From Photobacterium proteolyticum (GTDB taxonomy: Bacteria > Pseudomonadota > Gammaproteobacteria > Enterobacterales > Vibrionaceae): a stretch of DNA of 64,000 bases. The stretch is taken from contig NZ_MJIL01000053.1 of NCBI RefSeq assembly GCF_001939735.1, forward strand, positions 62,391 through 126,390, read 5' to 3'. The position numbers and the translations under genes are program-made. Below are positions 15,704 through 21,150 of the stretch, piece by piece. The notes under the pieces are model-generated. The model was not told where the DNA came from, made no database searches, and worked only from the letters and a program-made list of their open reading frames with translations. Each line of letters starts with the position of its first letter. Positions within the stretch are counted from its first letter, which is position 1.

Positions 15704-17581
15704 TTACGCGACATTTACTGTCGGAATCGCCTGCTCCTGATCCAGACGCACTTCCAGCGCGACTTCGTCACAGGCATGCTGACGCGGGCAACGGTCACAG
15801 TCTTTCATCACTTTTTCCGGCAACAACGACTTGGATGTCGGGATAAAGCCTTGCTTCATAAAGAATTCAGGCACACGCGTCAGTACAAAGACCTTCTTGA
15901 TCGCCATCTGACCGGCTTTCTCAATCAAATGTTCGACAATCGCCTTACCCTGGCCCTGCTGCTGCCAGCCGGCCTCGACACCCAGTGAGCGAATTTCTGC
16001 CAATCCGGAGTCGTAGACATACAGCGATGCACATCCCGTCACTGTTCCGTGGTGTTCAGCCACGGCAAACGAGCCGATATCACGCACCAGTTCATTGCGC
16101 ATCCGTGGCAGGTTCTCACCCAGTCCAGCCCAGTAGACAACCATGCCCTCAATGGCATCAAGGTCGGTCAGACGTGCTCCCCGTACCTTCACACCCGGCG
16201 AGTAGCGTTTCTCGAGACGCTTCTCGGCCTGGCCAATCGCATAATCCACCTGGTTAGGTGCGACCCCACCAAGGGCACAACGCTTGTCCAGACACGAATC
16301 AATCGTCAGGATTGGATACACATCCTCGTCTATCACCTCGGAGAAGGCTTTCATTTCGGTTAGTGACAGCTCTTCCAGTGCGCAGCCCTTGTCGATAGCG
16401 GCCACCACGGCCACCCCGACGATATGGTGGGCTTCACGGAACGGGATACCTTTGGCAACCAGGTAATCAGCCAGCTCGGTGGCATTCGAGTAGCCCTGCA
16501 TCGCGGCTTCCAGGGTACGATCCTTATTGACCTTGATGCCGTCAAAACATAGCGCAGCCATTTCCATACAGTCATGCCAGCTATCAAGGGCATCAAACAA
16601 ACCTTCCTTGTCTTCCTGCATGTCTTTGTTGTAGGCCAGCGGCAATGCCTTCACCGTCATCATCATGCCAGCCATCGAACCGTATACCCGGCCACATTTA
16701 CCCCGGATCAGCTCCAGCGCATCCGGGTTTTTCTTCTGCGGCATCAGGGACGAGCCCGAGGTCACAGTATCCGCCAGCTCGATAAAGTTCGATTCGCCGG
16801 AGTTATAGAAGATCAAGTCTTCCGCCATCCGTGACAGGTGCAGCATCGAAATAGAGGCCGTCGACAACAGCTCCATCACGTGGTCGCGATCAGACACCGA
16901 GTCAAGACTGTTGCGGGTTGCCCGGTGGAAACCCAGGCTATGGGCCAGCTCCTCGCGGTCAATCGGATAGGCCGTACCGGCCAGCGCCCCCGAACCCAGC
17001 GGACAGGTATCAAGACGATTAAGCGCGTCGTGAAGACGCGAATGATCACGCTCGAACATCTCCACATAGGCCAGACACCAGTGGGCAAACGTCACCGGCT
17101 GTGCCCGCTGCAAATGGGTATAGCCAGGCAATACCGTCCCCTGATGGTCACGGGCGACCGAGACCAGCTGGTTCTGCAGCTTATCGAGCATCAACAGTAG
17201 CTGCTGGCCCTGCTGACGACACCATAGCTTCAGATCCGTCGCAACCTGATCGTTACGCGAACGACCGGTGTGCAGTTTCTTGCCCAGATCCCCCACCTTG
17301 CTGATCAATTGCTGCTCAACCCAGCTGTGAATGTCCTCGGCATCAGAGCGCAGGATTTGCTCCGGATCTTCCATCACCGCCAGCTTAAGCTCGTTCAGCG
17401 CCAGCTCGAGCCTCTGCTGCTCTTCATCCGTCAGGACATTCACCTGACGCAGTGCCTTTGACCATGCAATAGAACCAACGATGTCTTGCTCCGCCAAACG
17501 GTAATCAAAACGTAGTGAATCGTTGAACTGCTTGAACCGTGTGTCAGCTGCCTGACTAAAACGTCCGCCCCATAGTGCCAT
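15704..17581 (-). CDS. argH: Argininosuccinate lyase fused to N-acetylglutamate synthase-type acetyltransferase
   Basis: Residues 1 to about 460 are argininosuccinate lyase, which splits argininosuccinate into arginine and fumarate. The fumarase/lyase signature [15 protein letters not shown] is present. Residues from about 470 to 625 form a GNAT acetyltransferase ([16 protein letters not shown]; acetyl-CoA loop [18 protein letters not shown]) related to the catalytic part of ArgA. Such ArgH(A) fusions are established in Moritella and Vibrio, where the domain makes N-acetylglutamate, the first committed step. The fusion therefore joins the first and last enzymes of the pathway. It is the last gene of argCBGH. 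Confidence 0.95.
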
Positions 17582-17627
17582 GGTACTTCTCCTATGCTTC
17601 GCTACTCGACTTGCTCATTGCTCTGAA

Positions 17628-18842
17628 TTATTTATTTTTCTTTTGTTCGTTTAACGCACGAATACGGCTGGCCAGCGAGTACAGGCGGATAAAGCCTTCA
17701 GCATGACTGTGGTCATAAACCTCATCTTCACCAAAGGTGGCAAATTCTTCCGAGTACAGGCTGTTTAGCGAGCGCTTCTGAACAACTGTAGCTTGCCCCT
17801 TATAGAGTTTCACCACAACTTCACCGCTCACATCCTGGGCAAGCTCATCGGCAGCTGCCAGCAATGATTTGCAAAGCGGGGTAAACCAACGACCGTCATA
17901 GATAAGGTGCGAGGCTTTCAGGCCGATAGACTCACGGAACTCAAACGATTCCTTGTCGAGAACCAGCTGTTCAACCGCACGCAGTGCCTCGTTCATAATC
18001 GTGCCGCCCGGAGTTTCGTAGCAGCCACGGGATTTCATACCCACCAGACGGTTCTCGACGATATCGATACGGCCGACACCGTGCTCGGCACCTTTCTCGT
18101 TGAGGTAGGTCAGAACGTTGAGTGGTGACATCGCTTCGCCGTCAACCGCGACAATTTCGCCCTTATCAATCAGGATTGACACCGTTTCTGGTTTTTCTGG
18201 TGCATCTTCAGGATCTTTAGTCCAGACCCAGCACAGCTCGTTAGGCTGGTTCCAGGTATCTTCCAGTACTCCGCCCTCAGTCGAAATGTGCCAGGCATTG
18301 GCATCACGCGAGTAGATTTTTTCCAGTGACGCCGTACATGGGATGTCACGCTCGGCCAGATAGTCCAGCAGAGCCTCACGGCTACGCAGATCCCACTCAC
18401 GCCAAGGCGCAATCACTGTCAGCTGTGGTGCCAGGGCCGCATAGGCACTTTCAAAACGTACCTGGTCATTACCTTTACCGGTACAGCCGTGGCAGACGGC
18501 ATCAGCACCGACTTCCAGTGCACATTCAACCTGTGCCTTGGCGATAATCGGACGTGCCATTGAAGTACCCAGCAGGTATTTGCCTTCGTAGATAGCACCG
18601 GTCTTAAGGCTCGGGTAGATATAGTCGGCGACCATTTCGTCCTTAAGGTCAGCAATGAAGCAAGAAGATGCTCCCGAGGCCAATGCCTTCTCTTCAATCC
18701 CTTCCAGCTCTGCCTCACCCTGGCCGACATCGGCCACAAACGCCACAACCTCACAGTCATAGTTTTCTTTCAGCCATGGAATAATCGCTGATGTGTCCAG
18801 ACCGCCGGAATAGGCCAATACTACTTTAGTTACCTTGCTCAT
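17628..18842 (-). CDS. argG: Argininosuccinate synthase
   Basis: Condenses citrulline and aspartate with ATP to argininosuccinate. The 404 residues start [24 protein letters not shown], carrying the PP-loop SGGLDTS (14-20). Further motifs are [13 protein letters not shown] and [11 protein letters not shown], which contact substrate and nucleotide. The length fits the short (type 1) family. It follows argB by 93 bp and precedes argH by 46 bp in the same operon. Confidence 0.97.
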
Positions 18843-18935
18843 AATGCTCTCCTGCTTGCCTGCTCGACGGTCATACCGCTCAGGCGTTTTAATATAATGG
18901 GTGTTCTAATCAAATAAATTCTGTTTTCGCCCGGC

Positions 18936-19715
18936 TTACACCGAGAACTTGGTGCCGATACTCTGGCCATCGAACAAGGCTTCCAGCTTGTCCGGGTAAC
19001 GCCAGGTCGCCACTTCAATCGGCCGTCCCAGTGCTTTCGCAGCTTCGAAAGCAGCCCGTACCTTGACGACCATGCCATCGGTGATCACGGCCTGGGTGAT
19101 CAGCGCCTCGGCTTCGTTTTCAGTCAGGCTGGCAATCAGCCGCCCTTTGCCGTCCAGCACACCGCTGACATCCGACAGCAGAACCAGTTCAGCATCCAGC
19201 GCCGCCGCCACCGCAACCGCCGCCTGATCGGCATTGACGTTCATCAGTTCGCCATCACCATCAAGGCCAATCGAGCTGACAATCGGCAAATAGCCAGAGG
19301 CCATAATCAGCTTCACCAGTTCGCTATTGCCCGGGGCAGCCTTGCCGACTGAACCCAGCTCCGGGTCCAGCTCAGTGATCTGGCACAGGCCGCCATCGGC
19401 AAGGCTCAGACCCACAGCAGCTACGCCTGATTTAATCGCCTGTCCCTGCAAAACTTTGTTGGCCGTACCGGCCAGCGCGCCGGCAATGAAGGGAATATGC
19501 TCTTTCGGGGTCACCCGCAGGCCTTCTTTCTTTACGGTCTCGTGCTGCAGTTTTTCCATCAGGTCGTCAACCAGATAGCCGCCGCCGTGAACCAGCAATA
19601 GTGGTCGCTGGGCTTTTTCCTGATAATGGCTGATCGCACCGAACAGTTTTTCCAGCGTGTCCGTGCATGACAGCACAGCACCACCTAACTTAATTACCAA
19701 AGGGACCTGACTCAT
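18936..19715 (-). CDS. argB: Acetylglutamate kinase
   Basis: Phosphorylates N-acetylglutamate, the second step of the acetylated arginine pathway. The 259 residues begin with [11 protein letters not shown] and carry [11 protein letters not shown] for phosphate binding. [25 protein letters not shown] follows, typical of amino-acid kinases. The short N-terminus without an extra helix resembles the E. coli dimeric, arginine-insensitive enzyme rather than the hexameric feedback-inhibited type (an inference from length). It lies 11 bp after argC. Confidence 0.97.
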
Positions 19716-19726
19716 GGTGCTACCTC

Positions 19727-20740
19727 CTAAACCAACGCCGTTAATTGCGGGAAATCATTTCGAATATTTATGCACTGCATCGCTTGAGATGAGGCACCTT
19801 TCAATAAGTTGTCAATTGCCGATGTTAAAATAATGTGTTGACCCTGTACCTTCCAGCCAATATCGCAGAAGCAAGTGTTAACAACATTTTGAATACTTGC
19901 CGTTTGCTCGCCCAGCAACCTGACAGCATGCTGGCCACTCTGGCCCTGATAGGCTTGCTGCATGGCCTCGGCTACTTTCCCGGCATCAACACCCGGGGCT
20001 AACTTGGCCGTAATCGTTGCCAGGATCCCGCGCTTAAAGTTGCCGAGATGAGGGGTGAAAATCACATCGCAACCAAGGTGCGTCGCAATCTCAGGCTGGT
20101 GACGATGACCGAAGACGCCATAGGCCTGCAGGCTGACCTCACAGAAGCTGTTGACCATAGTGGCTTTACGGCCAGCGCCGGAAACACCGCTCACCGCATT
20201 GATAACAGGCCACTGGTCTTTATCAATAAGGTTAGCCTCCAAAAGCGGTTTCAGCGCCAGCTGCGATGCGGTTGGGTAGCAGCCCGGAACAGCCACAAGC
20301 TGCGCCTGCTTAATCGCCTGGCTATTCCACTCGGCCAGACCATAAACCGCCTTCTCCAGCCACTGCTGATGCTGATGTTCGAAGCCGTAGTACTGGGTAT
20401 AGAAGTCATCGCCTTGCACCCGAAACGCACCTGACAAATCAAACACCTGACAGTCCTTGGAGAGAAAAATCGTTGCCAAGTCGTGGCTAACCTCGTGGGC
20501 CGTGGCCAGCAGGACGATATCTGCCTTGGCGGCAACCGCAGCAGGATCCGTCAAAGGCTGAAGCGGCAGATCGACAATCCCTTTGAGCTGTCCATGCAGG
20601 TCGCTGACTGGCTTATTGGCATCAAGGCTATTTGCCGATACATACAGGCCCGCCAGATTCAGTTGAGGATGGGTGTGCACCATTTTCGCCAGCTCTGCGC
20701 CGGTATAACCGCTGGCACCGATAATGAAGGTGTTCAACAT
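19727..20740 (-). CDS. argC: N-acetyl-gamma-glutamyl-phosphate reductase
   Basis: NADPH-dependent reduction of acetylglutamyl phosphate to the semialdehyde. The 337 residues have the N-terminal Rossmann motif [15 protein letters not shown] and the catalytic cysteine in [14 protein letters not shown] conserved substrate region [34 protein letters not shown] follows. It is the first gene of argCBGH. The start codon has a modest GGAA Shine-Dalgarno and is preceded by an unusually long leader of about 258 nt, described separately. The argE gene that normally diverges here is absent. Confidence 0.97.
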
Positions 20741-20817
20741 ATGAAATTCCGTTTTTAATGCGTTAAGTAATTAATACTTGGTGTTTGAAACTATGCTGCA
20801 GATGCAGCGGATGAAGG

Positions 20818-20888
20818 GGTGCACGAGCGCACCAGGCGATGAGACTTAGCGTCGTCGGAGGGAATTCAGATTGTGAATAGTCGCCTGG
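20818..20888 (-). promoter_or_regulatory. Foldable segments around the arg leader peptide
   Basis: In transcript order: CCAGGCGA (20888-20881), inside the leader peptide frame, can pair over 8 bp with TCGCCTGG (20839-20832). The last two bases of that partner also belong to the stem GGTGC / GCACC (20833-20829 with 20822-20818). Another hairpin, GCTGC-ATCT-GCAGC, follows toward argC. AATTCC within the frame is complementary to GGAATT at the argC ribosome binding site. No classical T-run terminator is seen, so control could be translational or Rho-dependent. Confidence 0.45.
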
Positions 20889-20893
20889 ATCAT
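20846..20893 (-). CDS. Candidate arginine leader peptide (15 aa)
   Basis: ATG at 20893 opens a 15-codon frame, MIQATIHNLNSLRRR, closed by TAA at 20848-20846. The last three sense codons are CGA-CGA-CGC, so all three terminal residues are arginine. A ribosome binding site (AGGAAG, about 9 nt upstream) is present. The frame lies inside the leader transcribed from the argC promoter. The segment CCAGGCGA in codons 2-5 is perfectly complementary to TCGCCTGG just beyond the stop. The layout is that of an attenuation leader peptide. There is no direct proof that it is translated. Confidence 0.6.
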   Translation of the reverse strand: MIQATIHNLNSLRRR

Positions 20894-20971
20894 GTTAATA
20901 ACTTCCTACATTCAGCATCTTTAGCTATTCTTTGCGCTGATACTTAGCGTCGATATTGGCATCGATAAATG

Positions 20972-21010
20972 GCTAAATTTTTATTCATCTTGATTGCATT
21001 TATATGTTTA
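20972..21010. promoter_or_regulatory. Two ArgR-box-like sites
   Basis: 18-bp sites at 20972-20989 and 20993-21010, with centres 21 bp apart as in tandem ARG boxes. The first (core TAAATTTTTATTCA) fits TNTGAATWWWWATTCANW with three mismatches; the second is weaker, with about six. They overlap the argC -10 element and the start of the transcript, as expected for repression by ArgR. Confidence 0.55.
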
Positions 21011-21033
21011 CCGATTAATCCTTGGCCTGTCAA
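21005..21033 (-). promoter_or_regulatory. Predicted argCBGH promoter
   Basis: On the minus strand a perfect -35 TTGACA (21033-21028), a 17-bp spacer and a -10 TAAACA (21010-21005). Initiation would be near 20998, giving a leader of about 258 nt before argC. Confidence 0.6.
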
Positions 21034-21108: not shown

Positions 21109-21150
21109 GCGCAGAGAGCACACTAAATGGCGCAGAGAGCACACTAAATG
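21109..21150. repeat. Perfect 21-bp tandem duplication
   Basis: The 21-bp unit GCGCAGAGAGCACACTAAATG occurs twice in immediate succession (21109-21129 and 21130-21150) upstream of ppc. The unit length is a whole number of codons, so the overlapping small reading frame repeats seven residues. Confidence 0.95.

Follow-up and report, generated by a model that had tools for sequence, protein, structure and literature searches.

How is the arginine biosynthesis operon argCBGH(A) of Photobacterium proteolyticum controlled between its promoter and its first gene? The question is raised by a 15-codon reading frame, closing with three consecutive arginine codons, that lies ahead of argC in the 64,000-nucleotide stretch of DNA that we analyzed (hereinafter, the window). 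In gamma-proteobacteria, a repressor is usually described as the sole control on arginine synthesis. An earlier reading made from the letters of this DNA (the sequence-only reading) had proposed an arginine attenuator here, and every element that it named, namely, the promoter TTGACA-17-TAAACA, AGGAAG, the frame, CGA-CGA-CGC-TAA, the stem arms, AATTCC, and GGAATT, was found on the minus strand (Table 1). The gene order suggests that argC, argB, argG, and argH(A) are cotranscribed, and the letters of the promoter point to a transcription start that would give a leader of 258 nt. A consensus scan missed this promoter because it accepts second hexamers only if their last letter is T; TTGACA is present in most of the Photobacterium alignment rows listed, and TAAACATA or TAAATATA stands at the -10 position, likewise in most. 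The nearest named relatives of the window ArgC are those of Photobacterium sp. OFAV2-7 (98%) and P. alginatilyticum (97%). The operon's argH carries a fused C-terminal acetyltransferase domain (positions 15704 to 17581, minus strand; NCBIfam PRK12308, Pfam Acetyltransf_1), a type of fusion that excerpts of PMC1382215 report from marine gamma-proteobacteria. Two tandem copies of a direct repeat of 21 bp, gcgcagagagcacactaaatg, separate argC from the divergently oriented ppc (positions 21109 to 21150), and the listed frames of a close relative (L020) suggest extra copies there.

Table 1. Features of the argC leader and operon (positions within the window)
Feature	Positions	Strand	Evidence or remark
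-35 hexamer TTGACA of argC promoter	21028..21033	minus	Letters read directly
-10 hexamer TAAACA	21005..21010	minus	Letters read directly; 17-nt spacer to -35
ArgR-box-like stretch GATGAATAAAAATTTAGC, candidate ArgR operator	20972..20989	minus	Directly 3' of -10 box
AGGAAG, ribosome site of leader frame	20902..20907	minus	Letters read directly
Leader peptide frame (proposed argL)	20846..20893	minus	MIQATIHNLNSLRRR, TAA stop; 15 codons
Stem A 5' arm CCAGGCGA, codons 2-5	20881..20888	minus	Pairs with 3' arm
Putative sensor codons CGA-CGA-CGC (Arg-Arg-Arg)	20849..20857	minus	Just before TAA stop
Stem A 3' arm TCGCCTGG, after stop	20832..20839	minus	In predicted fold
Hairpin B GGTGC(gctcgt)GCACC	20818..20833	minus	44/45 distinct Photobacterium leaders; shuffles 356/2250
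Hairpin C GCTGC(atct)GCAGC	20795..20808	minus	38/45 distinct Photobacterium leaders; shuffles 202/2250
C-rich, G-poor stretch, candidate Rho loading site	20751..20820	minus	20 C, 7 G in 70 nt; hairpin B to argC
argC, first gene of operon	19727..20740	minus	NCBIfam TIGR01850, 375.7 bits; ATG at 20740
argB, argG, argH(A), remainder of operon	15704..19715	minus	NCBIfam and Pfam matches

When the 258-nt leader was dinucleotide shuffled 20,000 times, an ATG frame of 8 to 30 codons ending in RRR arose 17 times, in 5 cases along with a ribosome site; the leader frame is the sole frame of this kind on either strand of the 64-kb window. We collected argC upstream regions, initially at 45 Photobacterium loci (33 distinct sequences, the other 12 being identical to those of named species) and 2 Gilliamella loci and later from further genomes. 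Among 52 genomes of the species or its genus, argC was matched in 51, the one without a match (G013) being 74% complete, and all 51 carry an ATG frame of 14 to 16 codons ending in LRRR, FRRR, or PRRR. The length differs by whole codons only, and the 14-, 15-, and 16-codon versions all retain the frame and RRR. AGGA or GGAA precedes it in most Photobacterium rows and is weak or absent in L014, L043, L044, and similar rows; poor ribosome sites before some leader frames were also seen when the leaders were compared. The argC match of one Photobacterium locus (L045; G016:C3:209187-210197) contains one in-frame TAG in the search table.

Over the wider sample, a short ATG frame with an in-frame CGACGA was recovered in 136 of 210 argC upstream regions, drawn from 209 genomes of 17 families (one genome, G143, is counted twice, as L096 and L125, both frameless), against 21 of 4,200 dinucleotide shuffles; because the genomes are related, the 136 cases are not 136 independent events. 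Eight of the 17 families of the order examined have at least one frame and nine have none. Within the Vibrionaceae, the frame occurs in genera g3 (14/16, with five consecutive Arg), g9 (8/8), and g7 (2/2) and in the single genomes of g4, g5, g8, and g11 (1/1 each), and it is absent from all 14 genomes of g10 and all 18 of g12; genera g2, g6, and g13 were left out of this count. Other families with the frame are f7 (13/20, from 20 different genera), f13 (4/4), f16 (5/5), f17 (8/9), and f25 (23 of 32 genomes in 33 rows, one genome appearing twice; the argC search covered 41 f25 genomes), together with f2 (3/4) and f11 (1/2). It was not found in f3, f5, f9, f10, f12, f19, f21, f26, and f27, represented by 1 to 4 genomes each. 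CGACGA is likewise lacking in both Gilliamella argC leaders and in that of Escherichia coli K-12, for which a TTG/GTG-started frame ending in IRR is listed. Since g10, g12, and nine families do without it, the leader frame is dispensable. No such frame was seen upstream of carA (9 loci) or of the OTC gene (11 loci) at the 20 loci inspected in 9 Photobacterium genomes. A second genomic copy of CGACGACGCTAA (L109) was considered as a leader and rejected; it ends a frame that is open for at least 500 codons.

Is it the codons, the peptide, or the letters that are kept? The leader peptides of different families have little in common except for their Arg pair or run, whose codons are terminal in Photobacterium and f17 and lie several codons ahead of the stop in f2, f13, f16, and f25, and many members have two Arg only (RR, RRH, RRC). 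At the ninth f17 locus (L111), the run reads RQR (CGA-CAA-CGA; listed as NRQR) and a weaker hairpin is retained, so one Arg codon may be dispensable. In f16 (L232 to L236), the Arg pair is found mid-frame rather than terminally (e.g., MFNPMRRRYTLHR), and overlapping hairpins such as CCGGG..CCCGG and GCCTGC..GCAGGC were noted by eye 3' of the frame. CGA accounts for 38 of the 722 Arg codons (5%) in 32 coding sequences of the window, and the CGA-CGA pair recurs across families despite this rarity, so that its constancy looks like choice. An arrest peptide, in which the nascent chain would sense free arginine in the manner of the fungal attenuator peptide instead of the codons sensing charged tRNA, would be in keeping with the C-terminal (L/F/P)RRR retained within Photobacterium, but we regard it as quite improbable in view of the dissimilarity of the peptides between families, save for the Arg pair or run, and of the fixed use of a codon as rare in the window as CGA.

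We then considered CGACGA as a nucleotide signal, i.e., an RNA-binding or pairing element within an incidental frame. The near invariance of its letters would suit such a signal, as would the participation of CGACGA or neighboring letters in a stem in f17, g3, and g7. Against this, among the 137 leaders with CGACGA within 200 nt of argC (restricted to groups with earlier matches), the motif lies within a short ATG frame and is read there as CGA codons in 136, compared with 7 for the ACG frame and 4 for the GAC frame; the frame is preserved across insertions and deletions; and the stem partners are not alike from family to family. The nucleotide signal is thus highly improbable. The stop follows 3 codons past the first codon of the motif in 72 leaders and 2 to 6 codons past it in 126. 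Taken together, the sequence comparisons show that the leader frame is conserved and that selection acts on it as a set of arginine codons. Excerpts of a Salmonella his-leader assay (PMC4046918) describe CGA as the slow codon of its own tRNA group and Arg pairs containing it as causing strong de-attenuation. In the Salmonella speF leader, frequent and rare Arg codons were equally effective, according to the portion available of PMC6386406, and the fixed CGA is therefore not explained by stalling alone. The fixed CGA-CGA pair makes codon-specific sensing open to direct test.

The sequence-only reading had further paired the start of the frame with a stretch past its stop (stem A) and had proposed an alignment of argC upstream regions as the check. 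The alignment bore it out in both respects: relatives keep the Arg run, and changes in one arm of the stem are compensated in the other. In 43 of 54 Photobacterium rows, some of them identical, stem A, of the general form CCARGCGA/TCGCYTGG, outdoes its shuffles, no more than 4 in 100 of which equal it; it is weak in L046 and gone in 10 rows that form one clade (L049 to L051, L053, L054, and L062 to L066), in which the RRR frame, hairpin B, and mostly hairpin C are retained. Pairs were counted in 41 distinct sequences (39 Photobacterium plus L074 and L075), after the 10 A-less Photobacterium leaders and the other-genus leaders without an M(N/S/I)Q(A/T) start had been dropped. In this set, 98.1% of the cells are paired, against 18.5 to 37.8% in slid controls, and three of the nine pairs show two-sided changes, amounting to 19 such cells versus 6.4 in column shuffles. 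The pair types show no excess (5 versus 5.1 in shuffles), and the covariation score is 0.160, with the structure slid by +1 column still giving 0.120. Mapped on the argC tree, the central pair, which includes the third base of a Gln codon, underwent two or more changes on each side, always together in the 30 rows in which both sides are present; the tree yields two independent row pairs only, too few for a test (p 0.5). More double changes occur in L004, L052, and L075. The changes in the Gln (CAG/CAA) and Ala (GCG/GCA) codons leave the peptide unaltered, so that their matching is most simply explained by pairing, and stem A may be taken as supported by compensation. In g3 and g7 (L070, L071, and L076), it is replaced by a hairpin of the last Arg codons and the stop, which overlaps the 5' arm of B in L071, shares one letter with it in L070, and abuts it in L076.

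Hairpin B begins 9 to 14 nt past the stop, the A-less leaders included, and the arms of hairpin C are swapped among relatives (GCTGC/GCAGC, GCAGC/GCTGC, and GCGCC/GGCGC). Stems A and B compete, because GG (in the window) or GGT is common to both. The folding of the whole 258-nt leader is not unusual (z = -1.5; 16 of 200 shuffles equally good). Without a ribosome, the window leader is predicted to fold with A present and B absent (-31.2 kcal/mol), whereas deleting the letters that a ribosome would cover when stalled at any one of the three Arg codons yields a predicted fold with B and C. A ribosome at the stop codon likewise gives B and C, so the OFF state would require the ribosome to depart. 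At the level of sequence, the leader holds mutually exclusive structures, one of which a stalled ribosome could block. Searches with Rfam covariance models recovered no family between positions 19000 and 23000 and one chance-level match elsewhere in the region (E = 0.31). Pairing of the 3' arm of B with GGTGC in argC codons 8 and 9 was also tried and rejected: judged by eye, the changes are not followed (L023 has GGCGCT), and these codons belong to a conserved protein motif. In three f25 leaders (L100, L102, and L139), two hairpins past the frame, with no T run, seem by eye to compete for one strand, e.g., GCCCCT/AGGGGC versus AAGGGG/CCCCTT in L102.

These features very probably reflect arginine control of argCBGH(A) through ribosome stalling in its leader. 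In the mechanism that we propose, a ribosome would translate the 15-codon frame. With ample arginyl-tRNA, it would pass CGA-CGA-CGC, terminate, and depart, whereupon codons 2 to 5 would pair with the stretch past the stop as stem A, breaking B and exposing the C-rich stretch, and transcription would halt ahead of argC. With arginyl-tRNA scarce, the ribosome would stall at the Arg codons, inside the loop of stem A, and block it; B would then form, and RNA polymerase would presumably continue into argC. Stalling would in this manner alter the expression of argC, as the sequence-only reading had supposed.

Termination of transcription is the likely OFF step, and the device used seems to differ between groups. 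A terminator scan gave 0 terminator-like sites in the window region, and an intrinsic terminator in the window leader was rejected on that result; in most Photobacterium, no T run follows A, B, or C. In f17, a hairpin with the Arg codons in its 5' arm is found at 9/9 loci (-7.5 to -21.4 kcal/mol) and is followed by at least four consecutive T in 8/9; owing to this position of the codons, a ribosome stalled on them would prevent the hairpin. For one of these loci (L104), the mechanical terminator scan lists none, though the hairpin and TCTTTTC are present. In f7, inspection by eye showed frame letters 5' of the Arg codons pairing with letters past the stop, ahead of CTTTT or CTTTA (L237, L239, and L241), or a GC-rich hairpin followed by CCATTTTTC (L240). 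The lack of a T run in most Photobacterium makes Rho the likeliest agent there, and we put the chances that it is the stop agent at about even. The best 78-nt C-minus-G value of the leader (positions 20875 to 20798), a best-of-leader value, is reached by 0.7% of 12,786 window stretches. The C excess is small in L050 and L051 (15 C, 13 to 14 G) and in g3.

The same sensor could instead govern argC translation or mRNA decay, the output alone differing from the termination model. The window leader, with no T-run terminator, would accommodate this, and available sections of PMC6386406 describe Salmonella speF orf34 as acting partly through RNA stability and ribosome-site access. Yet the pairing of AATTCC with GGAATT at the argC ribosome site, which the sequence-only reading had included, did not hold up: six contiguous pairs are found in 4 of 41 distinct Photobacterium leaders, against 101 of 2,050 shuffles. 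Further, hairpin C of the window ends 54 nt before argC, and f17 has T-run hairpins. Control of translation or decay is, on this evidence, unlikely as the output, and we retain termination. Of the attenuator first proposed, then, the sensor frame and stem A stand and the second pairing fails; the frame is found beyond the Vibrionaceae, yet two Vibrionaceae genera are frameless.

A possible site for the repressor lies near the promoter. The ArgR-box-like stretch scores 14/18 against the ArgR consensus (shuffles, mean 13.3 and maximum 15), and taken singly is inseparable from AT-rich shuffles; the same scan of the E. coli K-12 argC gave TATGAATAAAAATACACT at 16/18. YGAAT plus an A/T run follows TTGAC in 36 of 51 Photobacterium genomes. 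A functionless chance frame, with argC under ArgR alone, would agree with this stretch by the promoter and with the absence of the frame from two genera and nine families; it is barely credible in the face of the conservation, the covariation, and the frame counts (136/210 and 136/137), which make chance unlikely. ArgR repression shares operon and signal with the leader and differs in acting at the DNA level, where it would work jointly with it, and the attenuator probably acts alongside ArgR. TrpR and the trp attenuator act together on trp in this way.

A broader scenario, which we advance tentatively as possible rather than probable, is that of an order-wide and probably old arginine attenuator, with a sensor fixed on CGA-CGA that responds to how slowly a single tRNA-Arg species decodes by wobble, an output rewired between intrinsic terminators (f17 and some f7) and a Rho-type stop (Photobacterium), and subsequent loss in two Vibrionaceae genera. 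If the attenuator is real, its presence ahead of argC in no fewer than eight families would bring arginine into the range of amino acids that attenuators sense; the arginine operon would have two arginine sensors, a repressor and charged tRNA; and the leaders would form a natural series in which one sensor drives different stop devices. As the acetyltransferase of the pathway's first step is present in the Photobacterium operon as a fused domain, the switch could set entry into the pathway.

In the openly accessible papers that we searched, no bacterial arginine-operon leader peptide was found; the sequence-only reading had likewise known of none of this kind described in Vibrionaceae. The attenuators listed for Shewanella in the portion seen of PMC3223726 are those for branched-chain amino acids, His, Thr, Trp, and Phe, arginine not being included. 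The words arginine and argC are absent from the main texts of a terminator survey (PMC2965389) and of a Photobacterium profundum transcriptome paper (PMC3505737), as are leader and attenuation from that of the argH(A) paper (PMC1382215). The argC leader resembles the attenuators of amino acid operons (his, thr, ilv, leu, trp, and phe) in its short frame, its codons for the operon's own amino acid, its alternative RNA structures, and its location before a pathway operon, where a repressor is possible too. The short frame apparently lies between promoter and operon in 51/51 Photobacterium genomes and 136/210 regions overall, and its in-frame codons (CGA-CGA in 136/137) are for the end product of argCBGH(A). 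It differs from them in that the amino acid is arginine, the window has no T-run terminator, and stem A draws its 5' arm from the first codons of the frame. It would thus be a classical attenuator in kind, with an amino acid and a range that are apparently undescribed.

Three further known systems come close. The fungal arginine attenuator peptide (CPA1, arg-2), as presented in parts of PMC11550727, is likewise encoded by a short frame upstream of an arginine gene; it differs in being eukaryotic and in its conserved peptide, which stalls at its own stop under high arginine, whereas in our leaders conservation is confined to the codons and does not extend to the peptide, the bacterial families differing save for the Arg pair or run. 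The nearest precedents, from what could be seen of their reports, are bacterial and concern codon-based arginine sensing at other genes. In Staphylococcus aureus rbfL (excerpts of PMC13009471), Arg codons of a leader peptide also sense arginine shortage, but they are AGA/AGG, a ribosome pausing on them obstructs translation initiation at the ribosome site of a biofilm regulator, and no biosynthetic operon is involved. Nearest of all is Salmonella speF orf34 (SpeFL), which, in the accessible part of PMC6386406, has 34 codons, a conserved domain, AGG-CGG codons, and a speF start 516 nt into the mRNA, and which controls ornithine decarboxylase, not arginine synthesis. Our leader, by contrast, precedes argC, and a HIRRT-type domain is absent from the listed peptides. 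The logic is nonetheless close to the one that we propose: in speF orf34, as described in that part of the paper, a pair of adjacent Arg codons serves as the arginine sensor, a hairpin 3' of the stop can form when the ribosome pauses, and Rho is involved.
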